This document shows positions 23,746-53,787 of a DNA stretch of 64,000 nt, in pieces (position 1 is the first letter of the stretch; each line of letters opens with the position of its first letter). The stretch covers positions 1 to 64,000 of the forward strand of contig JAOTON010001270.1 in assembly GCA_034440635.1 (NCBI GenBank). Reading direction: 5' to 3'. This DNA is from Lepas anatifera (lineage: Eukaryota > Arthropoda > Thecostraca > Lepadidae). The position numbers and the translations under genes are program-made. The notes under the pieces are model-generated. The model ran no database searches and was not told the origin of the DNA. It saw only the letters and a list, made by a program, of their open reading frames with translations.

Positions 23746-24942
23746 TTAACCCTTGCCCCGGTGGGGAACGAGCCACCTTCACCCTGGTGGGGGGAGCTAA
23801 AAAAACCCCACGATCTCAAAAATTAAGCGAGCTAGAAAAAAACGCAAAACGGCAATCAAAAGCTCTTCAAAAATGATATCGAAATTACTTTGGTCATTTT
23901 TCTTGTCCGGTCAATATCAAGGTTACCAGAGGTCAAAATAGGTCAAAATCGCTAAAATGAGGTGTACTAAGGCAGCCTCATATATCTCAGAAACTATGAT
24001 AGCTAGAAACATTTTTCTAACATCATTCCAAAGCTCTTGAGATGCTCTTTCATTACCGTGGCATTCATTTTCGTCTCAGATCAAAGCCTAGGGAGCTTCA
24101 GGTCACTGAATATTGGGCATATTCTTTGGAATGTCCATAGCCATCCATGCATAGGGCGTTTACTTTTTCGCTAATAGCTTGTAAATCAAAAAAGATACAG
24201 CCATAGTTGATGCACCGTTGCAATCATCTCGTCAATACGAATCCAATGATATATGACATTGCTATACCAGGTCAAATTTAAGAATTTGACCTGACCCAGG
24301 TCAACGGTCTGACCCAACTTGACCTGGTATAGTCATGATGTATATCATTTGACTTGTAGTGACTATACGCACACGTTTGTGACAAAATAAATGTTCTATC
24401 TTAGTTTATTTAAAATTTATAGAGTAAAACAGCAAAAAATGCTTATTTGACCTAAGGTGACCTTTTAAAGGTCACAAGTCAAAATGTTTGGCATCAACTT
24501 CAGAAATGGGCCAAGAGCAGGTCGTTACCGATGTTTGAAGTTGATTCCATCCATACTTACTGAGAAAAGCTCATTTCGTGATTTTCCCCATGTATTTACA
24601 ACGGGGAGGTCATGCCTGCACATGACCCTAGGTCAACAATATAAAAAATCCCGGAACAAATGTTGTAGCTCCTGGTGAGCCCAATATGTGGTATGAGTTT
24701 GAACTTGACCGGTTAACCCTTCTTTTAGTTTTGCGGTCCTAAGCATTTTTGAGGTGAGGTCACTTCACCTGGCCTGGTGACCTGACCTGATATGACCTTG
24801 AGTTGAAATTTTCAGGAAAGCTGTAAAAAGGATGAAAGAACAGCTAGACCAAGTTTGGCGGCGCTGCGCGCTGCCGTTTTTTGGTCGCTTTGGAAAAGCC
24901 CGAGGGGGGTCTAAAAAGACCCCCAACCCGGGCGACGGTTAA
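23746..24942. mobile_element. TTAA element 1 (AGGTCA-rich, piggyBac-like MITE)
   Basis: TTAA at both ends (23,746-23,749 and 24,939-24,942). GC-rich termini ttaacccttgccccggtggg and, at the right end, cccgggcgacggttaa form an imperfect inverted repeat. TTAA duplication and CCC-initial termini are piggyBac traits. The interior is dense in AGGTCA/TGACCT and includes caggtcaaatttaagaattt, then gacctgacccaggtca. No transposase. An inverted relative lies at 52,597-53,787. Confidence 0.75.
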
Positions 24943-25455
24943 CTAGGGGGCCATTCCCCCAGTCGGCCGAAATGCCCCCCAGTGCCCAGAAATTGGCCCC
25001 CCAGTGAAATAGACAGATGAATTAAAATTGACCAAATGCAGACACGCCTAACGAAAATAAGACAGAACACCGCCCGATAATTTTAACTTTGTTCCATTTC
25101 TGGTCCCAGTTTGGCAATCCACAAAAATTGTGTTAAAAAAATTTTTCAGACGAAGACGAAACAAAGCGTGTAGTTACGGGAAATCTCGGCAAAGCAGCTT
25201 CAGCATCAACTAATCACAACGCTGGCCTACAACCAATCAACCATTCTGTTCTATCCGACCGGAAGCCCACATCCCAGCCAGTACCGTGAAATTTTATGAT
25301 GCTCTCATTTCAAACGCAGTCCGTTGTCAGCGCTAAGAGCTCCTTTGTGGATTAGACGGGACACGGTGTAGTCAAAGTGCGTAAGTCTGGTTGCTGGTGT
25401 GGCGGTATGAAGTGTTTAGCCTTTTTATTTATCATCGTGGTGGTAGAATAGATAA
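24939..25455 (+). repeat. Module A, copy 1
   Basis: Begins TTAACTAGGGGG, then ccccagtcggccgaa. It is similar throughout to 42,505-43,055 (shared aataagacagaacaccgcccgat, cacaaaaattgtgtt, tatccgaccggaag, tcccagccagtac). Its first TTAA is the last TTAA of the element to its left. Function unknown. Confidence 0.75.
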
Positions 25456-25840
25456 ACGTCACCACCGGCGAAAAAGTGAGGGGGCCAGCCAAACTTCAAC
25501 CTGATGGTGACAGCAAACTGTCCACGTTAATAGCAAGAACTTTTCGAATTTGGGCTCCTTGTTGCCTTCCGCAGCGGCTGGTTAAATAAATTTCCGGTTT
25601 ACTCCCATTTTGACTGAGATCAGGAAATTGTTGGTCTAAAAGTAGGAGGAGGGTGATTGAAGATCCAAAAAATGTTCTGGTTATGTGGATAAAATCATTC
25701 GATGGCCACGCGGGGATGGAAGGGCACTCCTGGCTTCCTATTAGATGGGCAGTGTGCTAGAAATATTGCGTCAAGTCAATATTTTTGCTTCCTTTATAAT
25801 ATCAATATCAATATCAGTTTGCTTCCTTTCTTTGCCCTTG
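25455..25840. other. Spacer separating modules A and B in copy 1
   Basis: Not found in the 42.5-43.6 kb copy. No coding similarity. Confidence 0.35.
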
Positions 25841-26325
25841 AAGGTCGGTGCGCAACAGTTTTTTCCTCGCCGACTGGCCTGAGGGGGTTATGGAAAGGGG
25901 CTCATACATGGGTAATCATGCTTTCATATCAAGTACCTCTCACCTCATCATCTAAAAAAGGCTCAATTCACGTTATTGGTACGTAGATTAAACATGTATG
26001 TGGTTCAGCACCCAAGGTCAGGTGGCTCTGTGGTGTTTCCACGCCTGACACACAAAATATCATGCTCTCATCTTCAGTCACTCTCACCTCATCATCATAA
26101 AAAAGTGTTTCCGCACCCGGTGTCAGTCCTCACCCTGGTGTTCCCACGTGGGACACACAAAAATCATGCTCACATCTTTATTCACTCTCACCTCATCATC
26201 ATCTAAAAAAAGACTCAAGACACGTCATCATGTTACGGATATTAAACCTGTCTGTGGTTCAGCATCCGGTGTGAATACACTCCGTGGTGTTTCCACGTGG
26301 GACAAACATTATAAAAAAATATCAA
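25840..26325 (+). repeat. Module B, copy 1 (internal tandem repeats)
   Basis: Three or four diverged units containing gtggtgtttccac, gggacacacaaaa, tcatgctcacatcttt and cactctcacctcatcatc. The reverse complement of the whole block is at 43,118-43,590. Confidence 0.75.
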
Positions 26326-26342
26326 ACTGTCAACAATTAGTT

Positions 26343-27200
26343 TTAACACGCGCATTGAGAGGGGCGGGTACTCGCCCCTCGGGTTTTTCGGAGATAGCAG
26401 TAAAACGGCGGTGCGTAGCGCCGCCGTACTTGGCATACCTTTTCCCTCATCATTTTTACAGCTTCTGTGAAAATTTAAGGTTGGTCATCTCAGGTCAGGT
26501 CACCAGTACAGGTCAAGTGACCTGACCTCAAAAAAAGTTTAAGATAGCATAAGTCGGAGCAGGGTGAACTTATCCGATTGAAACTCACACCACATATTGG
26601 GCCCACCGAGTTATCTAAAATATGTTCCGGTATTTTTTTATATCGATGACCTAAGGTCAGGTACGAGGCATGACCTCTCCATTGGAAATACATGGGAAAA
26701 ATGGTTGTTACTGTATAACTCAGTAACCGATAGTGATAAAGCGTTTATTTTAGCTGCATTAGCTGCATTAGCTGCACTTGCATTGGATTTGCGGTTCTAA
26801 TGATATGAATTTTATATAATTTGGCCCTGACCTGACCTCAGGTCAGGTCAAATCCTTGATTTGACCTAGCAAGGTCAAATTATATATCTTTCGATTCGGC
26901 TTGCTGCGAGGATTCATATCCTTTCAGTCGTTTTGCTCTATCTTTATTTGTTCAGATGTAATGGTAGAAAAACTTAATTTACATGTTATCCCTATTACGG
27001 CATGTTTTGACCTCTCGTGACCTTAAATGTGACCTGACAAAAAATGGTTCAAATGTTTTCGATGGAGAAGTGGATGGGCAACCCAACGCCGTTTACCGTT
27101 TTTCGCTACCTACCGTGGTTCTCGAGATCTTAGGGGGGCGGGTACCCGCCCCCCTCGTCAAAGCGAAGGTGGCTCAGACCCCCGTCAATGCACGTGTTAA
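26343..27200. mobile_element. TTAA element 3 (AGGTCA-rich)
   Basis: 858 bp between two TTAA sites, with termini TTAACACGCGCATTGA and the inverse of TTAACACGTGCATTGA. Five half-sites (three AGGTCA, two TGACCT) lie within 26,492-26,528, and a 23-bp palindrome of four half-sites lies at 26,828-26,850. The core has atatatctttcgattcgg. No coding potential is supported. Confidence 0.8.
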
Positions 27201-27633
27201 ACAGTGATACAAGACGCTTTTTCTGTGGTTTTATGACTGCCGCTAGGGGTCTTTTCAGTCTCAAATCAGGCTTTTGTGGTGTTTGTTTGGATATTTTAGT
27301 GGAAATAGAATTTTGCCGTTCTTTGGCCCTTTTTCTAACTCGGTTTGACCTTTTCCGCTGAAAAAACCTGGGAGCCATGGGGCAGTATCTATAATCTTTA
27401 GACTTGGAACAACAAAAAATTGAAAAAAAAACATTTTTTAACACTAACGCGTCTAAGTTTTATTAAACCTCCTCAAAATGGAGTCTTGACCCCTTGAAGA
27501 CACTATAATGGCCAGCACAAGAAATGCTCCCCCCACTGACTTTTCCTTCAAAATGCCCTGGCTCAGAGAGGACTACGGGGCAGGTGTGAGAATCTATATA
27601 CCATTGAACAAAGTGGGATAAGTTTTAACACCC
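27201..27633. other. Spacer between TTAA elements; no gene seen
   Basis: No similarity recognised. The minus-strand open frame here shows no conserved motif. Confidence 0.35.
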
Positions 27634-28100
27634 CGCATTGATGGGGGGGCGAGTATCCACCCATCCCTCGGGTTTTTAGCAGAGCAAATAAAAACGGCAG
27701 TGCGTAGCAGGGGTGTAACTTTGTGAAAATCTTTAGGGGTGCTTTTTCCTAGCCAACCCATAACATTTTACTGGCATTGTTCGGGGATGAAAAACGTAAA
27801 AAGGGGTAAAAACTTTACACTTTTGTCCTTACACCTTTGTTCTGCGACATTAAAGTAAACACCCCTCCCACAAAATTCTCCCACACACTTTAGACGCGGG
27901 CAAAGGTGCTTTGCACAGAATGCCTTATAAAGAGCCCTTAACTAGCTAGCTAACACTTTTGTCGAAACATCTCTAATGACTTCTTTCTTGCTTTATTTGC
28001 ACTCCACACTGTTCCCCTTGGATCAAAAAGTAGTTTGGCCCCCTGGTTTTAGCGTTTGGGGGAGTATGGCCCAAATGCCATCCCCCTGGATCCGCCAGTG
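27634..28100. mobile_element. TTAA element head interrupted by another short element
   Basis: 27,634-27,706 is the first 70 bp of a TTAA element (ttaacaccccgcattgatgg). It then breaks at caggggtgtaactttgtg, the terminus of a second family also seen at 33,735-33,830. The right side ends ccccctggatccgccagtg, a hAT-like terminus. Confidence 0.6.
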
Positions 28101-28102
28101 AC

Positions 28103-29124
28103 TTAACACGCTCATTGCTGGTGGGCGAAATTCGCCCCTCCTGGTTTTCCCGGAATAACGCAAAAACCAAGAAACGCAGAGCAACGAAACCTACAGTACC
28201 TTATTCCTGATCAATTCTACGCATCTCACCAAATTTTTGAGGGCAGGTCATGTCAGGTCAAGGAGCTATCCAAGGTCAAGCGACCCGACCTCAAAACCTA
28301 AAATTACGAGTTTGATACGGCGCCTAAGGAGCATCAGCCAACCGATCAGTTTGAAACTCCCACAATATGATGAGGCTATTAGGGTCTACAAATCTGCTAT
28401 CTCGGAATTTTGATATTGTTGACCGAAGGTGCGGTCAATTTTTTGGTCACCCCATTTTAAGTCAATGGAGAAAAATAGAAAGGGCTCGTTTTGGTAAAGC
28501 CGGGATAGATAAAGCTGAAAATGCTCAAACGGTGTATTCTTACCACGATCTTGACCATAAAGCTGAGTTTTGGACCATCTGACCTCTCAAAGGTCATGTC
28601 AGGTCACAGGAGCATACAGTGATTGTTTTGGCAATAACTTCTCACTGATTTGAGATAAAGCTCCCATTTTGGTTTTATTGTGCTTGTATTGTCACGAGGA
28701 GTCCATTGATATGTAATATGACCATACCAGGTCACCCTGTGACCTTGACCTAACTAGGTGTTAGGTCATTTTCACAGTTTGACCTAGGAAGGTCATATTA
28801 TACATCATTCGATTTACCACAATGAGAGGAAACCAATGATGCATAAATATGTGCTCTAGCTCCACTGAGAGAAAAATCTAGAGGGGGAAACGTACATTGC
28901 CCTGTTGTAAGCCTATGGGGCATTATTTGACCTATGCTGACCTCAATATTGACCTGAAATAAAAATACTTCGTATAATTTCTCTTCGTCTCGTGAAGAGC
29001 TTTCAAACGCCGTCCGTAATATTTCTTTAGCTTTCCTGGGAAATGAGATACGGAGGGAGGGGGCGAAATTCGCCCCCTCCAGCGGGGTGCGTCATGCCAG
29101 GGACCCCAGCGGGGTGCGTGTCAA
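28103..29124. mobile_element. TTAA element 5 (AGGTCA-rich)
   Basis: 1,022 bp. Starts TTAACACGCTCATTG, ends ggtgcgtgTCAA (one mutation from TTAA). Contains ggcgaaattcgcccc stems near both ends and the core attatacatcattcgattt followed by gagagga. Close relative of 29,314-30,340. Confidence 0.78.
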
Positions 29125-29313: not shown

Positions 29314-30340
29314 TTAACACGCACCCCGATGGGGGGCAAAATTCGCCCCCTCCCCTCCTGGTTTTCCCCGGATAAAGCAAACACGAAGAGTCGCAGAGCA
29401 ACGAAACTTGCAGTACCTTATCCCTGATCAATTTTACGCCTCTGAATTTTCTAGGTCAAGTCGTGTCAGGTCAAGGAGCTATCCACGGTCAAGTGACCCG
29501 ACCTCAAAACCTAGAATCACAAGTTTGAAGCGGTGCATAAGGAACATCTGCCCATCGATCAGTTTGAAACTTTCACAATATGATGAGGTCATTAGGGTCT
29601 ACAAATCTGCTGTCTCGGAATTTTGATATCATTGACCTAAGATGGGGTAATTTTTTGGTCACCATATTAGAAATCTATGGTGAAAAATTGAAAGGTCTCG
29701 TTTTCCGTAAATACTGGTTAGATAAAATTGAAAATTCTCAAACCGTGTATTTTTGCCACGATATTGACCTTAAAGGTTATTTTGAATATTTGACCTATCA
29801 AAGGTCATGTCAGGTCACAGGAGCAAACAGTGATTGTTTTGTCCATAACTTCTCACTGAATTGAGATAAAGCTCTCATTTTGCTTGCATTTTGCTTATAT
29901 TGTCACAGGGAGTCGATTGATATGCAAAATGACCATGCCAGGTCACCCTGTGACCCTGACCTAGCTCGATGTCAGGTCATTTTCACATTTTTGACCTAGC
30001 AAGGTCATATTATACGAGTGCATTATTCGATTCACCACGATGAGAGGAATCCAATGTTGTGTAAATATTTGCTCTAACTCCACTGAATAAATATATAGAG
30101 GGGGAAACGTGCACTGCCCTGTTGTAAGCCTATGGAATATTCTTTGACCTATGCTGACCTCAATATTGTCCTGACATAAGAATACTTCCTGTAATTTTTC
30201 TTCGCCACGTCAGGAGCTTTCGAACGCTGTGCGTAATTTTTCTTTAGCTTTCCTGGGAAATGAGATACGGAAGGAAGAGGGCGAAATACGCCCCCCAGCG
30301 CGGTGCGTCATGCCAGGGAACCCAGCGGGGCGCGTGTTGA
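29314..30340. mobile_element. TTAA element 6 (AGGTCA-rich)
   Basis: 1,027 bp. Starts TTAACACGCACCCCG, ends cgcgtgTTGA. Colinear with 28,103-29,124 over its length (ggtctacaaatctgct, ttgacctatcaaaggtcatg, ttcgattcacca). The two copies lie head-to-tail, 189 bp apart. Confidence 0.78.
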
Positions 30341-30520: not shown

Positions 30521-31333
30521 TTGAACACTTATCTATCCCTCGCCCCGGGGTGGGGGTGTTTGAACATCCCCATTCGGGTTTTTGGCGGCACGAAAAACGG
30601 CGGCGCCGCCAAAATGATTTTCTATATCGATGACCTAAGGTAAAGTACGGATCAAGACCTCTCTATTGGAAATGCATGGGAAAAACAGAAATTGGGCTGT
30701 ATTTGTGTAGATGCAGCTGAGAATACCTCCATCTTCTCCAAATCGCAGTATCCTGGGCCCCTTTTCAGGTTCATGTTGCAATTTAAGACCTGTGACCGCT
30801 GAGAGGTCATCTGTGCTACTTAAGCAGTTTTCAGAACTAGGTAAATAACTTTGCATGAAATGATGGTACAACTTTTATTTTGACACCATTGCGCTTGGAT
30901 TGCTATTGCAAGTCGATTGATGTGCATATTGACTAGGCTAGATAAAATGTGACTTTGACCCTAACTTGAGGTCAGGTAATTTTTTGTGTTTTGACCTAGT
31001 ATGATCATATTATGCATCATTCGATTCGCCGTGATGAGAGGAAGCGAATGGTGCCTAGAAAATGGTTCTAAAACTCAACTCTTTGAGACGCTAGAGCCGA
31101 AAAACTCTACTCAAAATGCCACTTTCTTTGACCTGTCATGACCTCAATATTAACCTGAGCCAAACAATGACTGATATAGTTTCTTCATGAATTTCTATGA
31201 GCTATCCACCAGCCTTCGCGTCTTGCGCTATCCCGCGTAGGGGCCGAGTTCGAGGGGGCAGGCGTTCAAACACCTCCCCCCACGCACCCACCAGGGCTAA
31301 GGTGGCTCGGAGGCCCACCAGGGCGCGGGTTAA
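30521..31333. mobile_element. TTAA element 7 (AGGTCA-rich)
   Basis: About 813 bp from ttgaacac (mutated TTAA) to gcgggTTAA at 31,330-31,333. Termini are GC-rich (cctcgccccggggtggggg; ccaccagggcgcgggttaa). Core catcattcgattcgcc, then gatgagagga. Confidence 0.7.
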
Positions 31334-31754: not shown

Positions 31755-33192
31755 TTTTACTCCCTCGCCCTACCGGGGGATCGATTCGACCCTTATCCGT
31801 TTGAAAACTAAGAAAGGTGGAAAGACGCGGTAAAGCGCAGCCTGTTGCCCGAGATCTGAACTCTCCGACAGTGTACAATTATGTTTACCCTAGGTTAACT
31901 AGTAACCTCGTGAGGTCAAAAATGGTGAAATTTTGAGACATTTAGAAAATCCCTTATGATTCGGGAATCAATAGACCTAGAACCAAGGTGTCAATGCGTT
32001 TGTCGTAACCCAAGGAGTTCCACAATATGTGGCATGACCTGGCAAGGTCACGCATGACCTTGGCCTTAGACCACCTAACATAACCTTAGGTCAAAGTCGA
32101 AGTGAGGTCGCATACCATCGAATCCTTGGGTGATGCTCGTAACTATGATACCAAATTAATTTCTACATCTTGTCCCGTCCATGAGTATAGCCAACAAGAG
32201 CTTCTAAAACGGTAACCTTTGCTGACCTTTGGGGACCCCTGGTGCCTTCGTTATGGAATTGATCTCAAAATAGATGGCGTATTCCAAATTGCCTTTTCAG
32301 GAGCCTTCGAATCCTTTTTAGAAACCTGATCTGCCTCTTCTAGAAGCCGAGTAACGCCCGGTTTTTCAGATATATTTTAGTACCAAAATTGCCTTACATG
32401 GGCATAGAAATGGCGTCATAACTCGGTGACCCGACATGACATTTACTTAAAATTTGGTCAAGATGTGTCGAAGTAATTTTGTTATACAATTTCCACGCAG
32501 CATTGGGCTAAACGAAACTTTTTGCGTCATCACAAAAATAACGAGGGGCGTCGAATCGGCCCCCCGAAGGACGAGGGTTAACCAATATTAGTCAAAATAT
32601 AGCTATTTTACAGTTTTTACCCTGTATTTCCATTGAAGAGGTCGCCCGTAAATGAAACTAGGTGTATCACCGATTTCATAAAACCCGGAATATATGTTGC
32701 AGCACCCGGTAGGCCCATGATGGTTTTTAAGTGTCGGATTGCTAGGTTAAACGTGCCCCCCGAAGGAGGAGGGTTAACCAATATGAGCCAAAATATAGCT
32801 ATTTTACAGTTTTTACCATGTATTTCCATTGAAGAGGTCGCCCGTAAATGAGACTAGGCATATCACCGATTTTATAAACCCGGAATATATGTTGCAGCAC
32901 CCGGTAGGCCCATAATGGTTTTTAAGTGTCGGATTGCTAGGTTAAACGTGTTCTTACTTATAAATAACTTTACTTTACTTATTGCATAAATGCAATCCTA
33001 ATATTTTAGATGAAGTCACTTTCCTTTGCCTGATGACTTAACCTAACATGACCAAACTTGATTTTTTAAAGATGCGGAATTGATCAAGGAAGAGATATGA
33101 AAGGTACGGCGGCGCAGCGGCGCCGTTTATCCGCTATCCTTACAAAGCCTTATGGAGACCATCGATGCTCCTCTCGGACGGGCGAGGGTTAA
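31755..33192. mobile_element. TTAA elements 8a/8b with tandem duplication
   Basis: A head ccctcgccctaccggggga at about 31,760 and tails cccccgaaggacgagggTTAA (32,581), gaaggaggagggTTAA (32,777) and gggcgagggTTAA (33,192). A 196-bp unit is repeated head-to-tail at about 32,561-32,756 and 32,757-32,952. The last part is a reverse-oriented fragment (ggcggcgcagcggcgccg). Confidence 0.65.
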
Positions 33193-33735: not shown

Positions 33736-33830
33736 AGTTTTAGGGGTGCTTTTGGAAGTTTAGGGGTGCTTTCAAAGTTTTAGGGGTGCTCGCGCACCCC
33801 TAAAAGTATACAAAGTTACACGCCTGGTGC
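33735..33830. mobile_element. Short inverted-repeat element (TTTTAGGGGTGC family)
   Basis: Three direct copies of tttaggggtgct followed by the inverse gcacccctaaaa and acaaagttacac. The same terminus (gtgtaactttgt, then tttaggggtgct) is at 27,709. It truncates the left end of the TTAA element that follows. Confidence 0.6.
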
Positions 33831-34423
33831 GTAGCGCCGCAGTTCTTGGCATACCTTTCTCTGACCATATTTAAAACTTTTGTCAAAATTGGGCCGCCTC
33901 AGGTCAGGTCAACAGTACAGGTCAAGTGACCTAACCTAAAAATGAATTAAGACAGCATAATTTAGACCCGGGTGATCCCATACATTTGAAACTCATCACA
34001 TAATGGGCTCACCGATTTCTTCAAGAGGCTACCATTCGCCGGAAGACGCATATTATTTGACCCAGATTTGACGACAAGATATGATACACTTTTCGACAGA
34101 CTTAAATTTGTCTGTATTTAAAATTTCACTAAAACTAACAAAATGGAAAACTTCATGCAAATTTCTGACAAAAATGCCTAGAAATATATCCATGAAGAAA
34201 AGTAGTGCGGACGGAGAGATGCCAAAACAACAAACATGCCAATTTATTAAACCAGTACTTATCGAAAGGGGCCCGGCTGCGCACAGTGGGGGGTGGTAAG
34301 CTACGGGGGGTCGTAAGCAAGGCAAGGAGCCCGGCTAGAGCCAGAGGACGCTTGGGTAGCCCAGAGGGAGCCTGAAATTTTAGCACGGGTGCCCGGATAC
34401 AGCGAAGTGGGAGGAGTGGAGTC

Positions 34424-34577: not shown

Positions 34578-34585
34578 GCTGTGGT

Positions 34586-36230
34586 TCCTTGCAGACCACA
34601 GGGACGCGGACAAACCATAGGAGCCCGGGAAAATTGCAGGGGGCCGGACAACCCGCAGGGGGCCGGGTAGACCACAGAAGGCCCGGGCAGACTAAAAGGA
34701 GGCCAGACCACCCACAAGGGGCCCGGGCGGACCACACAGGACCCAGGCACACTACAAAAAGCCCAGACCACCTACAAAGGGCCCGGGCAGACCACAGGGG
34801 CCCGGGCAGACTAAAAGGGGCCAAAGCAGAATACAAGGGGCCCGGTTGCAGCCACAGAGGGCCCGGCTGAACCAAAAAGGTCCCGGGACTGCCTGAAATA
34901 GGGGCCCAGATACAGTCAAAATGGGCCTGAGAATATCGTTAGGGGCCCGTTTGCGGACACAGCGATTATGGGTGGCCCTAAAGGGAACCGCACCAAAGCA
35001 AGCATGCCAGGCAAGCATGCCAAGGAGCCCGGCCGCAGCCGCAGCAAGCCCAGATAGTCCACGGGGCTCCGCACTCATGGCAAGGGCCCGTCCGTGGCAT
35101 TAGAGGACCCGCGCCTCCTGGACCACGGGGTGCCCGATTGCAGTCATAGGTCCCGGTTGCAGTCACAGGGGGCCCGGGTGAATCACAGGCGCCCGGTTGC
35201 GGTGACAGGGGCTCGGGCGGATCACAGAGGGCCCGGTTGCAGTCACAGGGAGCCCGGTTGGACCACAGGGAATCCGTTTGCAGTCACAGGGGGCCAGGGT
35301 GGATCTCAGGGGGCCTGTTTGCAGTCAAAGAGGGCCCGTGTGGATCACAGGGGGCCCAGGATGGATCACATGGGGCCTCAGGTTAATCACAGGGTGCCCC
35401 AGGTGGATCACAGGGGGCCCCAGGTGGATTACAGGGGCCCGATTGCAGTCACAGGGGGCCCGAGTGGATCAAATGGGGACCGGTTGCAGTCACAGGGGGC
35501 CCGGGTGGATCATAGTGGGTCCGGGTGGATCACAAAGGGTCCGGTTGCAGTCACAGGGGGCCAGGGTGTATCACAGGGGGCCCCGGTGGATCATACGGGG
35601 CCGATTGTAATTGCAGGGGGCCGGGTGGCTCACAGAGGGCCCGGTTGCAGTCACAGGGGACCCGGGTGGATCACAGATGGCCCAGTTGCAATCACAGGGG
35701 GCCCAGGTGGATGACAGGGGGCCCGGTTGCAGTCACAGGGGGCCCGGGTGGATCATAGGGGGCCTGGTTGTAATTACAGGGAGCCCGGGTGGATCACAGA
35801 GGACCCTGTTGCAGTCACAGGGGGCCGGGTGGATCGCAGAGGGTCCGGTTGCAGTCAAAGGGGCCCGGTGGATCACAGATGGCCCGGTCCCGGTCACAGG
35901 AGGCCCGGGTGGATGATATGGGGGCCGGTTGTAATCACAGGGAGCCTGGGTGGATTAAAGGGGGCCCGGTTGCAGTCCACAGGGGCCCGGGTGGATCACA
36001 GAGCGCCCGGTTGGATGACAGAAGGTCGGAGACTGCCGGAATTAGGGACCCGGCTGGAGTCGAAGTGGGCCTGAAAATATCGTTAGGGGCCCGGTTGCGG
36101 ACATCGAGGTTAAGGGTAGTCCACAGGGGACCCGTAAGCATGCCAGGGAGCCTGGCCTTCAGCCAAAGCTAGCCAAGTAGACCACTGGGACCTGCACTCG
36201 TGGCAGGGGCCCGGCTGTGTCCGCAGGGGC
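34586..36230. repeat. GC-rich minisatellite D
   Basis: Units of about 21-22 bp alternate gcccggttgcagtcacaggg and gcccgggtggatcacagggg, giving a roughly 43-bp dimer, best ordered at 35,150-36,000. Several frames stay open (up to 206 codons) because of the repeat; they are not genes. Confidence 0.92.
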
Positions 36231-36944
36231 CCGCAACTTGGGATTGGGGGGGCTCGTCGGGTCATTGGGGGGGCTTCTCCGAGCATTGGGGGCTCGAGCC
36301 CCCAAAATATATGGAAACTTGCGCCCCTGTATCCGGTATGTTTTATATCGATGGCCTAAGGCTAGATACGAGCCATGGCCTCTCCATTGGAAATACATGA
36401 AAAAATGGTTTAAATTTAATAGCTTAGTACCTAATAGATAGTGGTAGAGCGTTTCTTTTAGCGGCATTAGGTACGCCTTGAATGTGCGGTTCTAATGATA
36501 TACATTGTGACCTAATTTGATTGTGACCTGACCTCAGATCAGGTCAAATTATATCTATATTTGTATAAATTTACCTACATTTGACCTGATTTCACCTACC
36601 AAGGATATATCATATATCATTCGATTTGGCTTGCGGCGAGGATTGCAATTATCTAAATTGTTTTGCTCTATCTTCACTAATTCAGACGTAATGACTGAAA
36701 ACCGTTATTCACATGCTATTCCTATGGTGCCATGTCTTTCACATGCATCGACCTCTAGTGGCATAAAATTTGACGTGACAAAAAAAGGTTCAATTTTTCT
36801 GTTGGAATTTGGTGGGCTATCCGACGCCGTTTACCATTTTTCGCTATCTAGCTTGGTTTTCTAGATCTTAAGGGGGTACCCACTCCCTCCCCCGTCAAAG
36901 TAAGGGTGGCTCAGACCCCGTCAATGCGCGTGTTGACGCATGCA

Positions 36945-37844
36945 CGCATGAAATTTTTTTCCTCGGGTCACCCAAGGTCAGGTCACCAGGCGAGGTCAAC
37001 CAAGGTCACTTCACTTAAAATTTTGAGCTCTATAAGAGCTACATTTCTTAGTCGATCGATTTGAAACTTCCTACACTATATGACCCCTCCAGGTTCTACA
37101 AGGCGTATATCCGGGATTCTTATATTTCGTGGCCTGAGCTCAGGTCACGAGGTAACCTCTCCCATTGAAAAAGCATGGGGAAAACCTGTCTTATGATCTA
37201 AAAGTCACAAAAACAATTACAAATGCTCAGCTTGCTCAGAAAAGCGTTTTTGGACACCCCTTAACGTATCCCAGGGGACATATTTCCCCTTTGACTTCTC
37301 CAAGGTCATCCAAGGTCACCAGGGTTCAAAAACAGCATTTTGACAATAACGTTTGACCTAACTGAGCTAGATCTCTGAATCAAACATCATCGTGTCTGTT
37401 CTCGTCACTGGCTTTTATTTGATTTATGGCAAGGTCACTTTCTGACCTTTCGTGACCTCACGTCATATTAGGTCACGAGATGACCTCTGGAGGTCAAACC
37501 ACTGCCGGGAGGTCATTACGTTTCAAATAGCGAAAAAAGGTCTGCCTATTTCCTACCAAATGGACTTTACCAGATCTCAATAGCACTAATGGCATAAGAG
37601 TTATGCCCAGTTTTCTTAAGCCTTACATTTTGAGTGAAAATAGCTTACCGTGACCTAACTTGGCCTCTGGAGGTCAAACCATTGACTTGAGCGCTTAAAC
37701 ATCCATAATAATTTCTTACTGAATTCACGCGAGCTTTCTATTGCACTTTGCGGATTTGCGCTAACTCTCATATTTTCGGAGTTAGGGGCATCGATGGCCC
37801 GGTAGGGCGAAGATGGCGCCGGACCCCGGTGGGGGGCGGGTTAA
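36945..37844. mobile_element. TTAA element 11 (left end lost)
   Basis: Colinear with 39,720-40,619 (cgggtcacccaaggtcagg, ctacattt.ttagtcgatcgat, gccgttt-free core) and ends cggtggggggcgggTTAA at 37,841-37,844. The left end abuts the preceding element and lacks the terminal TTAA. Confidence 0.72.
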
Positions 37845-39591: not shown

Positions 39592-40619
39592 TTAACCCTC
39601 GCCCCACCGGGGCCATCGATGCCCCCTCTAAGGTTATTTCAGAATAGCAGAAAAACGACGAGCCGCAGTAACGTGGTTGAGGGCTGTATCTCTCACACCA
39701 TTATTTTCCCACCATCCCTGATTTTTTATCTCCGGGTCACCCAAGGGTCAGGTCACCAGGCGAGGTCAACCAACGTCACCTCACTTCAACTTTTGAGCTC
39801 TACAATAGCTACATTTCTAAGCCGATCAATTTGAAATTTCCTACACTTTATGACCCCTCCAGGGCCTACAAAATTTACATCCGGGATTTTTTGATTTCGT
39901 GACCTAAGGTCAGGTCACGGAGTGACCTCTCCCATTGAAACATAATGGGGAAAAGCTGTCTTATGATCTAAAGGTCACAAAAATGATTGAAAATGTCCAG
40001 ATTGCCCAGAAGAGTGTTCTTGGACACCCTTTCACGGATCCCAGGGGCCATATTTGCCCTTTGACTTATCTGAAGTCATCACAGGTCACTAGGGGTAAAA
40101 ACAGTATTTGTACGATAACTTTTGACCTAATTAAGCTAGAGCGCTGAAATAAACGTCATTGTGTATGTTTCATTACTGGCTTTAATTTGATATACAATAA
40201 GATCACTTTCTGACTTTTCGTGGCCTCAGTTCAAATTAGGTCACAGGGTGACCTCTGGAGGTTAAACCACTGGCGGGAGGTCATTATGTTTCAATATCAG
40301 AAAAAAGGTCTGGTATTTTCCTATCACGTGTACTTTACCAGATTGCAATAGCTCTAACGGCATGAGAGCTATGCCTAGTTTGCTTTGGTATTGCATATTT
40401 TAGTGGAATTAGCCTATCGTGACCTAACTTGACCTCTGGAGGTCAATCCATTGACCTGAGTGCTTAAACATGTGAGGTAATTTCTTACTGAATTCACGTG
40501 AGCATTCTAATCCACTTTGCAGATTTGCGCTAACCTCCATATTTTTAGAGTTAGAGGGGGCCATCGATAGCCCCGGTGAGGCGAAGGTGGCGCCGAACCC
40601 CCGGTGGAGCTCGTGTTAA
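39592..40619. mobile_element. TTAA element 12 (complete, AGGTCA-rich)
   Basis: 1,028 bp with TTAA at 39,592-39,595 and 40,616-40,619. The left terminus ttaaccctcgccccaccggg is mirrored by cccccggtggagctcgtgttaa at the right. It contains ccatcgat near both ends and many aggtca motifs. Its host flanks match the empty site near 38,293, which makes it the best-supported member of the family. Confidence 0.85.
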
Positions 40620-43075: not shown

Positions 43076-43117
43076 TTTTTCTGTAGATTTGATCAGTTTT
43101 AATTATTTTTTAAATTA

Positions 43118-43590
43118 ATGTTTGTCCCGTGGAAACACCACGGAGCGTATTCCACCGGTGCTGGACCACAGACATATTTAATATCCGTAACATGGTGACG
43201 TGTTCTGAGTCTGTTTAGTTGATGATTAGGTGAGAGTGACTAAAGATGTGAGCATGATTTTTGTGTGTCCCACGGGGAACACCAGGGTGAGGACTGACAC
43301 CGGGTGCAGAAACACTTTATGATGATGAGGTGAGAGTGACTGAAGATGAGGCATGATATTTTGTGTGCCAAGCGTGGAAACACCCAGAGCCACCTGACCT
43401 TGGGTGCTGAACCACAGACATGTTTAATCTACGTACCAATAACGTGAATTGAGCCTTTTTAGATGATGAGGTGGGAGGTACTTGATATGAAGCATGATTA
43501 CACATGTATGAGCCCTTTCCATAACCCCTCAGGCCAGTAGGCGAGGAAAACCTGTTGCGCACCGACCTTCAAGGCAAATGACCTTTTTTC
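43118..43590 (-). repeat. Module B, copy 2 (inverted)
   Basis: Reverse complement of 25,840-26,325 (tgatgatgaggtgagagtgac, gtgtgtcccacggg, gtggaaacacc). Here it directly follows module A. Confidence 0.75.
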
Positions 43591-43617
43591 AAATAACGCA
43601 GAATCAAAGATGTGGGC

Positions 43618-45000: not shown

Positions 45001-46335
45001 AGGTTCAAAACGCAGATACCCAAAATATCAGCTTAACGACACCATATCAGCTCAGGAGCCTTTAGGCCAATTCAGGGATCCTTAGATGAGTTCAGGGGAT
45101 TGGAAAATAATTAAATCAAAACAGCTAAGGGGCGCCAGATCAGCTCAGAGTCCGTAGGTTAGCTTAACCCCTCGCCTCACGGGGGGCATCAATGGCCCCC
45201 TAAGGTTTTTTTCGGGATAGCAGAAAAACAACCAGGCGCAGCACCGCAGTTGACAGGCTCTATCTCTCAACCCATCATTTTCCCACCATCCCTGAAATTT
45301 TTTACCCCGGGTCACCCAAGGTCAGGTCACCAGCTGAGGTCAACCAAGGTCACCTCGCTTCAACTTTTGAGCTCTATAAGAGCTAGGTTTCTCAGTCGAT
45401 CGATTTGAAACTTCCTACACTTCATGACCCCACCAGGGTCTACAAGGTGTATATCCGGCATTTTTCGATTTCATGGCCTGAGGTCAGGTCACGAGGTGAT
45501 CTCTCCCATTGAAAAAGCATGGGGAAAAACTGTCTTATGATCTAAAAGCCACTAAAACTATTGCAAATGCACGGCTTGCTCAGAAAAAAAAAGTTCTTGC
45601 ACACCCTTTCACGGATCATAGAGTTCATATTTTCCCTTTGACCTCTCTGAGATCATTCCAAGGTCACCAGGGATTAAAACAGTGGTTTAGGAGTACCTTT
45701 TGACCTCATTAAGCTAGAGCGCTGAATCAAACACCATCGTATATGTCTCGTCACTGGCTTTCATTTGATATATGGTAAGGTCACTTTCTGACCTTTGGTG
45801 ACCTTAGGTCATATGAGGTCACCAGGTGACCTCTGAACCACTGGCGGGAGGTCATGACGTTCCACATAGCGGGAAAAGGTCTGGCATTTTTCTATCCAAT
45901 GTAGTTTATCAGATCTCAATACCTCTAATGGCATAAGAGTTATGCCCAGTTTTCTTAAGCATCGCATATTTGAGTGAAAATAGCCTATCGTGACATAACT
46001 TGACCTCTGGAGGTCTAACCATTGACCTGAGCTCTTAAGCATGTGAGTAAATTCTTACTGAATTCACGCGAGCTTTCTATTACACTCTGCAGATTTGCGC
46101 TAACCCTCATATTTTCGGAGTTAGAGGCGGGGGCCATCGATGCCCCCAGTGGGGCGAAGGTGGCGCCGGACTCCCGGTGGGGCCCAGGTTAAGAGCCCAG
46201 CACAAGCTCAGGGTACCCCGATCAGTCCACCGATCAGCCCAGGGAGTCTCTGACTAGATCAAGGGCACTCCCACAAGCTCAGAGGGCCACCAGACCAGCT
46301 CAAGAGGTTCATCAGACAAGCTTTGGGGTCCGGTA
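45000..46335. repeat. Degenerate 'agctcaggg' minisatellite interrupted by TTAA element 13
   Basis: Repeats such as atcagctcaggagccttta and cacaagctcagagggccacc lie on both sides (45,025-45,160 and 46,197-46,335) of the inserted element. They resemble the H1/H2 minisatellite units. Confidence 0.6.
45164..46192. mobile_element. TTAA element 13 (complete, AGGTCA-rich)
   Basis: 1,029 bp, TTAA at 45,164-45,167 and 46,189-46,192. Termini ttaacccctcgcctcacggg and, at the right, ccggtggggcccaggttaa. Colinear with 39,592-40,619, including catcaatggccccc / gccatcgatgccccc near the ends. Confidence 0.85.
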
Positions 46336-47395: not shown

Positions 47396-48450
47396 TAGAA
47401 TTTTTGAGCATCTAAACTCTCAACAGGGGAGGAAAAAACCTTACACCTGTCGCCAACCTAATGTCTAACACTGAAAGCTGTCACTTTTATTTTTTCAATA
47501 TAAACAATTACTAAAGCACACATTATGCAACAAATGGTAACTGCATTAATAAAAAACAATCAGCAGCCAGACAAAAATATTCCTGATTTTGCAATGATGC
47601 TTACCTACTGAACACCACATCATCATGTATTTCTACACTTCCACACAAATGAGGTGGCTTTTAAAGTGTTGTCGCAATGCGTATGAAGTGATTATAAGCT
47701 ATGGAAGGAGATGGTAAGGATGAGGAAAGGTGAGGATCAAGAGGATGGGATTCTACCTGGAGGGGTCGCTGCAGCCACAGGCGCATGCGCTCACAGCCTC
47801 CAGGTAGAGTAAGGATAAGGATAAGGATTAGGTACCGGTAAAAAACACACACACACAATCGCACACTCACTTCGTACATTTAAACTAAAATAATATGAAG
47901 ATGAAAATGTTCGATTCTTCGGCTTCGTTTTCATTTCGTCTTCGATCTGGTAAATTTCGTTGTTTGTGCTCCATCTTGTTGGTGACATCGTTGACCTTGC
48001 TTCACTGATGTTCAATTGTTGCATATTTTTTTTCTTTAGTCTCCGGTGCTGATGTTCTCTTTCACAAAACTTGTTTTTTTATTGTTCTCTAAAATTATCC
48101 ATCCTGAAATATTTCAATATTCCCGCCGCGAAGCTTTTTTCTTGAAGGAGCTCTTAAAACACGTGAAACGCAACAAAAATCAAGGAGAAGATTAGCGACG
48201 AAACAAGGATAGTAGGCCAAAATGATGACATACTTCTTATTTTTATCTTCTTCTAGCTTGCACCAGAGACGGTCGAGGCGAATGAAAATTAGTACATAAT
48301 GTAGCCAAAGAATGTATCCTTCACCTGTATGGTATCATTGCTGATTTTTAATTAGAACAGGAAAATTTTTTATATTTTCAAAGAGCACTGAAAACACGTC
48401 CACTCCCTGACGCTGAAAGAACTGAACTATGCATCTGAACATCTATGCAC
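47396..48450. other. Unassigned sequence with short simple repeats
   Basis: Contains ggataagg repeats (47,815-47,830) and an (AC)n run near 47,847. No gene is supported. Confidence 0.35.
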
Positions 48451-48451
48451 A

Positions 48452-48615
48452 CTGGCGGATCCAGGAATTCATTTGTGGGGAGGGGGCTAGGGTTTCGAGC
48501 CTCACCTGCCAGTACCTCGGGCAGTCCCTCGCTTATTTATTAACTATCGGGGCTTGGCCATTGGGGGGAGGGTAGCTTGAGCCCCCTAGCCCTCTCCCTT
48601 GGATCCACCACTGCA
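48452..48615. mobile_element. hAT-like MITE, CAGTGGCGGATCCAGG family
   Basis: Left end cactggcggatccagg, right end cttggatccaccactg. The interior is GC-rich (ggggagggggctaggg, then gccccctagccctctccc) and partly self-complementary. Confidence 0.7.
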
Positions 48616-48857
48616 TATGCGTAATTTTCCACCTGTGTAAAGGCTGCCGCAAACACTGCAAAACGCCCACTGACGTAGATGCAAATTGGACCTCCCGGAA
48701 ATCGGAGCCGCAATCTTAGATTTTCTAGCTCATGACTCCACTAACTGGGCTGCCACCGGCCTGCGATAGGTCATCGACGGGTGGCAAAGTAGCATCTAGC
48801 TGCAGAGTGACACGTTAGTGTTTGCCAGCTTAACTGCTTGCGAACAATGGTGGGATC

Positions 48858-50150
48858 AAATATGATTCAGCCTATCACTAGATTTGTTAACAGAAAAGGT
48901 CCAGAATCGTCTCAAAGTTGAGAGGGGGCACTGCCCCTAGTCCAAAAGTTGAGGGCAGCCGCCCCCTGCCCCCCGGCTCCCGTGCCTATGGTGTCTGGCT
49001 GTTGGAACTGCTGCTTCCTGATGACATTATTATATCAATAACTAAAAGTTGTTTGGTCGGGCCACAGTCGAAAAATACAAACCTGGTGACCAAAAAAGAG
49101 AACTAAAATAAACAAAAAGGCTGAAAGAGCTTATATTATACATAAGCGTCGCCACCCACAAAAAGTCAAGGGGCAAGCGATTTAGACCTCCTGATGACAA
49201 GAAAACCTCACTTGAAGCATCCAAAACTCGTCGGATTCTGGCTGCTTGATACTTTCAAGCTTTTCCCCAGTTTGGCTGAAAAGGGAGCATTTCACGAACA
49301 GTGGGTGGCAGGCCCACAATGACCTCCTCATACCATTATCATTATCATTCGTATATTTGGCGTTTTAGGACGCACCGACTACTGAGGTCATTTTGTATCC
49401 CTAAAAATAATAAAATATAATAGTAAAAGGACGGAAATCCCGTCAAGATGCGACAGCATCGTCATCTTTAAAGTGAATCTGGCACCTTTATAACGTGATT
49501 TTAACTGAGATAGCCAAGTTGTAAAGCAAGTCGGAAAACCCGGTACTCTATATATCATTTGTCTTGGAACTTGATTTTTTCGTAGAAAAAAGCTAAAACC
49601 TACCCGAAATGTACCTCTCATGTACCTCTCACCAGGTGGCCATTGTTGTGAGCTGCTGGTGTGACGACATATGCTGACGTCATGATGAGCATCAGCCAAT
49701 CGAAGCCCTTGAAGCATTTCGAGTATGGTAGTGGTTGCCAGATCATGAAATCATCCACATGCATATATTTATTTCTTTTCCTAGAGGAATATTTTAAAAA
49801 TCAAAAGATTAGGCTTATTGTACATTTTTCAGAGAAATCATGAGTAGTTTCATTATTTTCGGCTAAAATTAGGCCTAATTACACTAAATTCCAGGATTCG
49901 ACCAAGATGCCACATTCCCTTTACGACCCAAACAGGTACATGAAATAACAGGTGGGTCTAAAATAGTAAATAGGGCTCAACCTTGCACCCACAGGAAGGT
50001 CAAGACATTTTACACAAGAAACCTAAACGGCTACAAAGGTGCGTAGATGGCATTAAAGGGAACGCTCTCCAAATAGTACATTATGCTGGCGATCTCAACA
50101 GACAGATGCTCCCCTAGGAGCGAATCCAGTGTAGGAGACCGCCACAGATA
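48858..50150 (+). repeat. Segmental duplication, copy 1
   Basis: 48,858-49,450 and 49,955-50,150 match 54,210-54,985. The 49,450-49,955 part is absent from the other copy. Confidence 0.8.
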
Positions 50151-50900
50151 CAGTAGCGGTGGAACATTTTTGTCCAAGGGGGAGGAGAGCCTCAATGGGG
50201 TCCATGGCATCAGCGGGAAATGTCATGGGGGATTGTTTAAATGTAGATTTCACAGAAATCATCACTTCTTTATCGTGCTGTCGAAGACGCGAAGTTTTCC
50301 CAATTTCCCCTACTTTGACTTTGAAAAAAGGTACACATTTACCATCCAGAGATAGTGCTTACTCGCACATTGACTGACAATGTTTAATAAAAGATGTTGA
50401 GCAGAATGTAGATTTCTAACTTTGTTTTGCCTACTTCGTTTTATGTCATCTTAGAGGGAGAAAAGACATGGCATAGGTGTGTGCAGCTAAAATTTTCTTT
50501 TAATCTGCATTTCCACAGAAACAAATGGTCACTGCGTTGTTTTGCCCGAGTCGGTGTGGCTCCGCTGCGCTCGGGGTCTTACCCCGCCGCCGCTCGGGCC
50601 CCCTCCCCTCCTTTTTTCGCGCCGTTGTCGGGGAATTTCCGTACTACAATTAACCGAGACCAATTATGCGCCCTGATGGTGACCTTAAATCTTCTCCCCC
50701 ATTGAGCCTCCCCGGCTGACCCTGCTAACTGACATGTGTATGCCTCCAGTGTGTTCATCTTGCGCGTTGTCTTTTTGAATAAACTTGAATGGCTTCAAAA
50801 AGAATTCAGGGACAAACTTTGCTTTGGCGAATAAGGAGCAGTTCAAAATTGCGCTCATCTATGTATATCGAGACACATAATGAGACACTAGCCTATGAAT
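50150..50900. other. Unassigned sequence downstream of the LINE
   Basis: 50,555-50,630 is GC-rich. No gene is supported. Confidence 0.35.
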
Positions 50901-51024
50901 TTTATGTATGTATGTATGTATGTATTTCAAGAATCACCCACAGGCATGGGCACCCACTGACAGGTGAAGTCAAAAGGTTTAAAATAATAAATATCAATGC
51001 AGAAACAGACACAGCCGATCGTCA

Positions 51025-51560
51025 TTATCTCCTGTCGTGTAAGTATAAAACAACGCGCTTCTTGAATTCGGTGACACTTTGATACCACACATCTACATTG
51101 CGGTTTGCATTTAAAAAGGCGTTGCACGCCTTCGGTATTGGGCAAAATAAACTGTAATGGGCGGTATTTGTCCGGGCGAACATGACATGAAATGTAGCTT
51201 TGGTGCGGAGCTGCCGGGTGGGCACAGTCAGTGGGAGCTTAAAAAGCAAGAATGGAGAGTCTACTTTGTGGCGATGGACATCTCTTATAAACATCAAATC
51301 AATTTGCTCTCGTCGGGCCGCTAAAGAGCTCATTCTATAAATATCCATTAACTCCTCAAACTGGAGTGAGGGCCCTACCACTCGACACCGAGCACACAAC
51401 CACATGAAAAATGTATGCTGTACACGTTCAATCCCTTTCATGTGTACGTCTGCTGCTCCACCCCACACCACGCTACAAAATTCCAAAATTGATCCCACAT
51501 TGGCACAGTATGTACTTCTCACAGATTTTTTGCCCCGTTCAATGAACGCTCGTCCTTTTG
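51025..51560 (-). pseudogene. LINE ORF2 C-terminal fragment
   Basis: Continues the RT in another frame after stops and an indel. ANVGSILEFCSVVWGGAADV followed by HMKGIERVQHTFFMWLC matches the segment 'SILEYCSVVWxPxxxxxxxxIExVQxxF' found downstream of RT in many LINEs. Confidence 0.82.
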
Positions 51561-51671
51561 CCGGTCTGCAAATACCTCATAAGTAAGCCCAAGGCCCTAT
51601 TGGCCTTGCAAACAGTGGTGTTAACGTGTTAGCCGAAAGTTAGTTTTTCGTCCAAAAAAAAAACGCCTAGA

Positions 51672-52211
51672 TCACGCATCACTGACACTTTCTAATTCTA
51701 CCCCGCCTATAGTGTATGTGCCAGTGACAGGAGCACGTCTTAGAGATAAAGTTAAAATTTTACATTTTGCCGGGTTTAAAGTCAGACCCCACGTCGCAGA
51801 CAAGCAACAAAGGGAATCCAGCTGTCTCTGTAGGAATTCAACATCTTCGTCGCTATTAATTTTGCGATACATTTTCACGTCATCCGCGAACATTAAGGTG
51901 TATGTCTGAACAACTTTCGGAAAATCATTAACGAGACAGGCGAACAGCAGCGGCGATAACAATCCGCCTTCCGGTGTCCCCGATTGAACAGGCATCCATC
52001 GCGAGCACTTGCCCTTTACAACGGCTCGCTGCTGCCTCCCAGACAGATACGACTCACACCATTTAAATGCTTGGTCCGAAATATGAAATGAATGTTTAAG
52101 TTTGTGGATAATCAGTTTATGGTTCACACTTTGGAAGGCTGAACTATAGTCTGTGTAAGTCACATCCGTCTGAGAGCCAGCCGAGATGTTGCTCCAGGCA
52201 GTGTGGAACAA
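51672..52211 (-). pseudogene. LINE reverse transcriptase fragment
   Basis: About 180 residues with the palm motifs of LINE RTs: TYTDYSSAFQSVNHKLIIHK, GTPEGGLLSPLLFACLVNDF and YTLMFADDVKMYRKI (the FADD catalytic motif). The first codon shown is not a true start; the frame is truncated upstream. It breaks at a run of T/A near 51,655, so it is inactive. Confidence 0.88.
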
Positions 52212-52596
52212 CGTACTCAGGTTAATTGATTAAACCGGTTAAGACTTAGGTCGAATATCTCATAATTCACGCGTTAAAACAGAAATTGCCCCGAAAATTT
52301 TTAGATTATCTGCACACATGGCCTTGCTTATAGCCTAGACATGCACAAGGGCATCTCACTGACCGTGTTTTACCAGGTGCAAGTGCAGCAACTTCATAAA
52401 TAGTGGACGTGTTTCGGTCCTGATTGTTTACACGCGTAAAATGGCTGCAGGAAGGAAGCTTTTTTACACGCTTCAGAGCCGATGCGACACACTGGGGCTT
52501 GGGGCTTTGGGGGCTTTCTCTGGGTTTTCTCTGGGGTGGCTCGGGCTTCTCTGCCAAATCTAGTGTCACCGGAAGGGAGGTCCGCTGAAGACGAAA

Positions 52597-53787
52597 GACG
52601 ACTTCGCCCGGGTGGGGGTCTTTTAGAAGCCCCTCGGGCTTTTCCGAAGCGACCAAAAACGGCGGCGCGCAGGGCTGCCAAACCTAGCATAGCTGTTCCT
52701 TCATCCTTTTTACATCCGTCCTGAAAATTTTAGCTCAAGCTCATATCAGGTCATGTCACCAGGCCAGGGGAAGTGACCTCACCTCAAAAAATGCGTAGTA
52801 CTGCATAACTAAAGGAGGGTTTCTCAATCAAGTGGAAACTGGTACCATATATTGGGCCCACCAGGAGCTACAACACATGTTCCGGGATTTTTTAGATTGG
52901 TGACCTAAGGTCATGTGCAGAGCATGACCTCCCCATTGTAAATACTTGGGGAAAATCACGAAATGAGCTTTTCTCGGTAAGTATGGATGGAATCGACTTC
53001 AAACATCGGTTACGACTTGCTCTTAGCCCATTTCTGAAGTTGACGCCAAACATTTTGACTTGGGACGGTTAAAAGATCATCTCAGGTCAAATAAACATTT
53101 TTTGGCGTTATTCTCTATACATTTTGAATAAACAAAGATACAATTTTTATTTTGTCACCAAAGTGTTTGTATAGTCACTGCAAGTCAAATTATATGCATC
53201 ATGACTATACCAGGTCAAGTTGGGCCAGACCGTTGACCTGGGTCAGATCAAATTCTTAAATTTGACCTGGCATAGCAATATTATATATCATTCGATTTGT
53301 ACTGACGAGAGGATTGCAATGGTGCATCAACTATGGCTGTATCTTGTTTGTTTTGGAAGTTATTAGCGAAAAGGGAAACGCCCTTATGCATGGGTGGCTA
53401 TTGACATTCCCAAGAATATGCCCCATATTCAGTGACCTGTAGCTCCCTGGGCTTTGACCTGACCCGAAAATCATTTGCACCGTAATGAAAGAGCAACTCA
53501 AGAGCTTTCGAATGGTGTTAAAAACATGTTTCTATCTATCATAGTTTCTGAGATATATGAGGTTTTCTTAGTACACCTCATATTAGCGATTTTGACCTAT
53601 TTTGACCTCTGGTGACCTTGATATTGACCTGACGAGAAAAATGACCGAAGTGTTTTCGATATAATTTTTGAAGAGCTTTTGATTGCCGTTTTGCACTTTT
53701 TCTAGCTCTCTTAGTTTTTGAGATCGTGGGGGTCTTTTTAGCCCCCCCCACCAGGGCGAAGGTGGCTCGTACCCGCCACCGGGGTAA
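52597..53787. mobile_element. TTAA element 2 (inverted relative of element 1)
   Basis: Reverse complement of 23,746-24,942 over its length: cttcgcccgggtgggggtc at the left, tttttagcccccccc and gccaccggggtaag at the right. Both terminal TTAA sites are mutated. Same AGGTCA-rich interior (gacctgggtcagatcaaatt, tttgacctggcatag). Confidence 0.75.

Follow-up and report, generated by a model that had tools for sequence, protein, structure and literature searches.

The stretch of DNA analysed here, referred to below as the window, comprises 64,000 nucleotides of the genome of the barnacle Lepas anatifera (assembly GCA_034440635.1, contig JAOTON010001270.1; positions 1-64000 of contig C1200 in the numbering of the assembly, which totals 1.044 Gb in 2,126 contigs). 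It carries a group of TTAA-bounded elements that are non-autonomous piggyBac transposons, or miniature inverted-repeat transposable elements (MITEs): they are short, non-coding and multicopy, with many thousands of copies in the genome. The hexamer AGGTCA, or its complement TGACCT, occurs 203 times in the window against 32.7 expected from dinucleotides, and no other hexamer there is as strongly over-represented. Twelve element pieces (10,673 bp) held 150 of these hexamers, or 14.05/kb, in a count that used element ends a few bases off from the coordinates given below; the other 53,327 bp of the window held 53 (0.99/kb), a two-fold excess over the 26.1 found in shuffles. Dinucleotide shuffles (300 each) gave ~0.5/kb both inside and outside the elements, with a maximum of 4 hexamers in any piece. 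A first-pass annotation had described the element interiors as unusually dense in this hexamer, and they are, with a density far above that of shuffled sequence. The elements, whose ends in the window were judged by eye, are as follows:

23746..24942, + strand: A1, TTAA-bounded, 16 hexamers; homology puts its orientation opposite to that of B and E
26343..27201, + strand: B1, a TTAACACGCGCATTGA-ended MITE with 17 hexamers, of a family derived from a C417-type autonomous element
26492..26528, + strand: hexamer cluster I of B1, ~165 bp from the left end
26647..26676, + strand: hexamer cluster II of B1
26828..26877, + strand: hexamer cluster III of B1, holding the near-perfect palindrome CTGACCTGACCTCAGGTCAGGTCA
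27008..27035, + strand: hexamer cluster IV of B1, the right-end cluster, ~165-190 bp from the right end
28103..29124, + strand: C1, 15 hexamers
29314..30340, + strand: C2, 15 hexamers, 84% to C1; right-hand TTAA mutated
30533..31333, + strand: D1, 6 hexamers; left TTAA decayed and start approximate
~31756..32581, + strand: F1, a decayed member with 6 hexamers; ends by eye
33820..33999, + strand: left portion of a B-like element split in two, 4 hexamers
36330..36934, + strand: right part of the split B-like element, 5 hexamers
36935..37844, + strand: E1, a left-truncated E element, 17 hexamers
39592..40619, + strand: E2, a complete E element with 16 hexamers, used as the query for genome copies
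45164..46192, + strand: E3, a complete E element, 18 hexamers
52597..53787, - strand: A2, 88% to A1, 15 hexamers; TTAA lost at both ends

Most of these had been listed in the first-pass annotation, which did not include F1 and started D1 at 30,521 rather than ~30,533. Its separate entries at 33,830 and 36,330 align as consecutive parts of a single B-like element, separated by a minisatellite-rich stretch; a GC-rich minisatellite with 20- and 41-bp units lies inside that stretch (window 34,600-36,050). The TTAA ends attributed to the whole group are not intact on A2, C2 and D1, and the CCC-starting termini described for it apply to E but not to B and C, which start CAC.

Across the genome, TTAA was present in 33/37 E copies at the 5' end and 35/37 at the 3' end, and in 30/30 B copies at one end and 29/30 at the other. 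The terminal inverted repeats (TIRs), TTAA included, matched at 22/22 bp in B and at 95% over 22 bp in E. The exact 22-mer of the B terminus, TTAACACGCGCATTGACGGGGG, occurred 25,296 times genome-wide (an intact B element contributes two ends), and the exact 21-mer of the E 5' terminus occurred 11,488 times; the reversed controls gave 0 in both cases. First-look candidate numbers (11,158 and 14,492) were not taken as counts, and a coverage of 3.5% (2,108 of 60,000 bp next to 30 piggyBac loci) is a biased figure that carries no weight here. Pairs of B termini were also found ~1.8 kb apart at C15:224527-226366, C19:271434-273229 and C20:302178-304057. In 2/3 of these pairs an exact E 5' terminus lies between the B termini (C15:225179 and C20:302353), and these look like B copies with a nested E copy.

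We scanned the genome for piggyBac transposases (PF13843), which gave 711 candidates, 116 of them scored, and 120 matches; the best 30 loci were examined with their flanks, followed by 8 more and then 2 more. Among the best 30, the readable termini belonged to other families (CCCGTTAACGCCCAGGG, CCCRTTAAGTACCA, CTGCTTCGGGACGA and CCCGRATCTGCCCA), and no termini were recognised at the remaining loci of that set. A partner for B was found at C417:840451-845030, an element of 4,580 bp with TTAA at both ends and a piggyBac transposase. Its termini are TTAACACGCGCATTGAC at both ends (15/16 positions matching), and its transposase lies in two exon-like pieces with a putative cysteine-rich tail in another frame. 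Positions 1-620 of the B consensus correspond to 1-619 of the C417 element at 84%, and positions 655-849 to 4383-4580 at 87%. Judged from this alignment, B is a C417-type element with a ~3.76 kb internal deletion and its ends joined, and its dense "interior" consists of subterminal regions of a larger element brought together. The piggyBac-type transposition proposed in the first-pass annotation is borne out for subfamily B by this parent, whose termini match and which encodes a PF13843 transposase; assignment to Kolobok or Sola3, which are other TTAA superfamilies, is unneeded for B because this piggyBac parent was found.

A second autonomous family is represented by the C1623 element (4,274 bp), with TTAACCCGCGCGGGGCTG termini (15/16) and an open 672-aa transposase. 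This protein matched 6x67 (Trichoplusia ni piggyBac) at 3e-70 and is 51% identical to an Amphibalanus protein; the exact C1623 terminus occurred 490 times genome-wide (control 0). Its MITE (1.19 kb) has the same architecture as B: all 3/3 fetched copies consist of parent bases 1-612/617 joined to 3710-4274, at 91-95%. The cut lies just inside the last array hexamer, and the C417 element has one further hexamer at 656, beyond the B deletion cut. Both MITE families kept ~612-620 bp of the array-rich end. From homology and design, A, C, D and E probably share this deletion origin. On visual inspection, the C1623 and C417 proteins have cysteine pairs at their C-termini, as do most of 18 homologues; a strict cysteine pattern matched 3/19 rows.

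The transposases of loci L037/L041 and L043 were considered as partners of B and rejected, as they belong to a different piggyBac family, with CCCGRATCTGCCC termini, whose members sit in TTAA sites within B copies or at their edges. These CCCGRATCTGCCC-ended elements are nested insertions: L041 1259-4728 sits in the internal TTAA of a B copy, and L043 1458-4476 at the edge TTAA of another.

In both autonomous families the hexamers crowd the non-coding ends. The left 700 bp of the C417 element hold 14, the right 300 bp hold 3, and 1 falls in the 3,580 bp separating them; in the C1623 element, 10 fall in the left 700 bp and 1 in the remaining 3,574 bp. By comparison, a further 20 piggyBac elements of this genome that are bounded by TIRs held 39 hexamers in 60,380 bp (0.65/kb) and no arrays. 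In a tree of 38 transposase domains, the four rows with arrays (L102, L105, L107 and L109) formed one clade with support 96/94; L116 and L117, further copies from the C1623 family, are not among the 38. Because L102, L107 and L109 are near-copies, this clade amounts to two lineages, with L102 and L105 49% identical. The relative L108 was considered as a further array-bearing row and rejected, its three clustered hexamers lying in the reading frame. A blastn comparison of the C417 and C1623 elements returned coding stretches, one 91-bp stretch linking opposite ends and hexamer-centred matches of at most 31 bp, with no longer alignable array sequence.

The hexamers are also phased. Measured from the array-rich end, cluster centres in E, B, A1, C1, C417 and C1623 lie at 158-177, 320-347 and 482-502 bp, with the second place in C1 lacking an exact hexamer; in D1 (six hexamers), the centres are at 102, 274, 451 and 604. 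The best common period over eight sequences was 168 bp (R 0.72), against an R of 0.44 at the 99th percentile of random cluster placement, and 0/1000 trials reached the observed value, in a test that overstates independence as the eight sequences partly share ancestry.

To measure constraint on the hexamer, we compared its variants with those at trinucleotide-matched outside positions, excluding CpG and the terminal 30 bp. The samples were 37 E copies (mean 94.3% to consensus; 37 of the 39 that were scored in addition to those of the window) and 30 B copies (97.2% to consensus; 29 of ~41 long matches plus the window copy), these being best-scoring matches and not a random draw. Variants shared by two or more copies were strongly depleted in hexamers (E, 78 against 296.6 expected, 0.26x; B, 6 against 52.9, 0.11x), and singletons less so (E, 56 against 68.0, 0.82x; B, 20 against 36.7, 0.55x). 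An earlier pass on 20 E copies gave 34 singletons against 51.5 and 13 shared-variant sites against 31.9. Under circular shifts of the hexamer mask, the shared deficit was reached in 0.2-0.3% of cases and the singleton deficit in 4-6%. The hexamer was thus constrained while the elements spread. The pattern suggests that the word is protected in multiplying lineages and much less so once copies have come to rest, although with the B singleton value the contrast between shared and private changes is not complete. The strongest dip in variation lies over the six hexamer bases; some flanking positions dip less strongly, and T is mildly preferred two bases upstream. Within hexamers, shared-variant cells numbered 7 at the first position and 34 at the second, from few events. 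Between families, hexamer-position mismatch was 0.045-0.113 in 11 pairs against 0.152-0.310 elsewhere, a comparison in which hexamers may help to anchor the alignments. The first-pass suggestion of selection on the hexamer, as opposed to neutral decay between subfamilies, is therefore supported both within families and between them.

AGGTCA is the core half-site of nuclear receptors. Receptor half-sites allow RGKTCA latitude, including AGTTCA, and monomers need a fixed A/T-rich 5' extension. In six family sequences, we counted AGGTCA 81 times against 2.7 expected, and the 18 one-mismatch words together 69 times against 48.6 (AGTTCA 4 against 3.2; GGGTCA, which had the highest enrichment among them, 10 against 3.1). 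The site is almost exact and allows little RGKTCA-type latitude; per-position variation in the hexamers is unlike the R-G-K-T-C-A latitude of receptor half-sites, and the E and B consensuses have no fixed 5' extension of the hexamer.

The half-sites do stand in receptor-type geometry. In the ten sequences compared, the commonest close pair (≤24 bp) is the direct repeat with a 4-bp gap, seen as 20 same-strand pairs spaced at 10 bp; a further 9 are spaced at 5 bp, overlapping by one base, and 4 at 6 bp. The ten sequences hold no same-strand pairs at 7, 8 or 9 bp (direct repeats DR1-3) and no IR1 (the inverted repeat AGGTCA-N-TGACCT). Genome-wide, AGGTCA-N4-AGGTCA occurs 223,375 times (reversed control 406), AGGTCA-N-AGGTCA (DR1) 21,150 times (control 198) and IR1 at 8,125 places (control 74). 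Since IR1 is common genome-wide, we dropped its absence from the ten sequences as an argument against ecdysone-type receptors. The placement of genome-wide sites in elements was checked for 5 of the 8,125 IR1 places: L118 and L119 represent two copies of a single B-related element; L122 (56-991) is a 936-bp TTAACACGCGCACTGG-bounded, TTAA-bounded element with 16 hexamers including the IR1; L121 is 68% like L122; and at L120 the IR1 lies outside a neighbouring E element.

We propose, with a probability of roughly 0.66, that the AGGTCA arrays are a cis-acting transposition signal of piggyBac ends, most likely read by the transposase of the array-bearing clade. The MITEs would arise when deletion of the transposase gene joins the two subterminal regions of an autonomous element, an origin traced here for B and the C1623-type MITE. 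The AGGTCA clusters, the first ~165 bp from the end and the others every 160-170 bp, would form a cis-acting part of the ends that is needed, or strongly favoured, for mobilisation. The likeliest reader would be the transposase, through its C-terminal cysteine-rich domain (a putative cross-brace zinc finger), and the ~168-bp phasing may serve synapsis or fit nucleosomes. The first-pass annotation had offered two alternatives, mobile clusters of receptor-binding sites or a repeat bound by the transposase or a host factor. The latter fits best. Receptor binding as the cause is unsupported, given the little enrichment of one-mismatch words, the lack of a fixed 5' extension and the 9 overlapping close pairs, and putative binding of nuclear receptors would not be needed to explain the arrays.

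Several known transposons provide context for this proposal. Ac/Ds, En/Spm and Tol2 have many short subterminal repeats over hundreds of bases that are needed for transposition; they belong to other transposase superfamilies (hAT, CACTA), and we know of no comparable 168-bp phasing in them. The common features with piggyBac of Trichoplusia ni (6x67, 6x68; PMC7351741) are TTAA targets, a DDE_Tnp_1_7 transposase and, putatively, a cysteine-rich C-terminus. The moth cysteine-rich domain binds paired half-sites inside the ends, in a palindromic internal repeat that includes TGACGCATG, and ends of 35 and 63 bp with one 19-bp internal repeat each suffice (PMC7351741). The likeness of AGGTCA/TGACCT to TGACGCATG is suggestive but weak. 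Unlike the moth ends as described there, the barnacle ends reach 600 bp and carry 10-14 hexamers in phased clusters. The left end of piggyBat of Myotis lucifugus carries repeats of a hexamer, GCGGGA, together with palindromes; these are interpreted as multiple sites for the transposase, spaced at 44 bp along 120 bp (PMC11707139). The repeated hexamer in the end is a shared feature; in contrast to the three left-end copies described for piggyBat, there are 10-14 here, with another word, another spacing and a longer reach (PMC11707139). Acropora CMITEs are piggyBac-linked TTAA MITEs with differing termini and a conserved interior proposed to matter for transposition; they are ~100 bp long with one 75-bp conserved core of unexplained origin, and the description covered mentions no hexamer array (PMC2872659). 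Compared with the CMITEs as so described, the barnacle MITE interior was traced to parental ends for two families. We found no published account of AGGTCA arrays in piggyBac among the top-ranked matches in the open-access literature.

The main rival to a transposase reader is a host nuclear receptor or other AGGTCA-reading protein, recruited by the transposon to its ends, where it would open chromatin, place nucleosomes or assist synapsis; here too the hexamers would be selected mainly while elements spread. The receptor half-site itself speaks for this, as do the predominance of 4-bp-gap direct repeats among close pairs, the genome-wide excess of these repeats and of DR1 and IR1 over their controls, and steps of ~168 bp, near the nucleosome repeat. 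We nevertheless consider it unlikely. Among the elements compared, arrays occur in one piggyBac clade only, with the 20 TIR-bounded piggyBac elements outside it lacking them; the site is nearly exact and has no fixed 5' extension; and the 9 overlapping 5-bp pairs should not accommodate two receptors at once. We favour the transposase as the reader because the repeats of piggyBac and piggyBat bind transposase, together with this evidence from the sites. Another possibility is that the arrays are a promoter or enhancer of the transposase gene, carried passively in MITEs. The large array does lie upstream of the gene in C417, but in C1623 it lies downstream, with similar steps, and gene-less MITEs still show hexamer constraint among spreading lineages, which makes this account very unlikely. 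That the host has kept many copies as mobile hormone-response clusters for gene regulation is highly improbable: the copies are many and their half-sites exact and receptor-like, but the far weaker depletion of private than of shared changes is unlike host-level conservation across copies, with the B value leaving some room. We give equally little credence to functionless inheritance with internal duplication of a hexamer-rich segment. E does show internal similarities around its clusters (for example 626-666 and 305-340, 83%), yet hexamer mismatch is far below that of neighbouring positions between families and within them, and shifted masks seldom reach the shared-variant deficit.

Several observations weigh against a transposition signal read by the transposase. 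The CCCGRATCTGCCC-ended family, outside the array clade, has 1-2 hexamers ~114 and 170 bp from one end in 12/12 listed elements, a small echo of the pattern that speaks against a clean split. The next relative, L108, lacks any array of hexamers beyond those in the reading frame, though it is a weak outgroup whose termini were unrecognised. Since the subfamilies share ancestry, as noted for the period test, the period and the clade are not independent counts, and inheritance could account for part of the arrays. Hexamers are also somewhat poor in singletons, which leaves room for lineage structure outside the sample or for another cause. The transposase loci examined included no parent of A, C, D or E, and a sequence search of solved structures (PDB) with the C-terminal piece gave no match. 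Finally, a 600-bp reach far exceeds the short ends that suffice for moth piggyBac in the account cited above.

If the arrays are a transposition signal, they add phased arrays spanning 600 bp to a range of piggyBac end designs that had one or three internal repeats, and array-bearing ends would explain the dense MITE interiors. The comparison of shared and private changes in the same six bases offers a way to separate selection for transposition from host selection, and the open 672-aa C1623 transposase with its MITE makes a ready two-part assay. Whatever drove the arrays, host nuclear receptors meet them, and effects on the receptors are worth testing; the ~223,000 exact receptor-type direct repeats amount to a natural experiment in target finding by hormone receptors. 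A broader and more doubtful idea is that a barnacle piggyBac clade evolved long nucleosome-phased end platforms from a receptor half-site, through zinc-finger convergence or hijack of a host receptor, and that MITE bursts seeded >220,000 perfect AGGTCA-N4-AGGTCA sites, enough for a receptor sink or a supply of hormone-responsive enhancers.

Other features of the window were identified. Two repeat arrays occupy 20,000-23,000, with ~22-bp units (20.0-20.9 kb) and ~118/147-bp units (21.1-23.0 kb). Inverted repeat copies, 88-99% alike, lie at 25,955-26,264 and 43,159-43,460 and contain TCTCACCTCATCATC-like text; similar text adjoins the transposase gene within the L041 piggyBac element. An RVT_1 reverse-transcriptase fragment (1.2e-18) at 51,672-52,229 on the - strand is a retrotransposon remnant. 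Finally, a gene with a GH3 domain lies in one open frame at 57,035-59,062 on the + strand, and the best of the 9 matches to its protein, 64% identical, is from Amphibalanus amphitrite.

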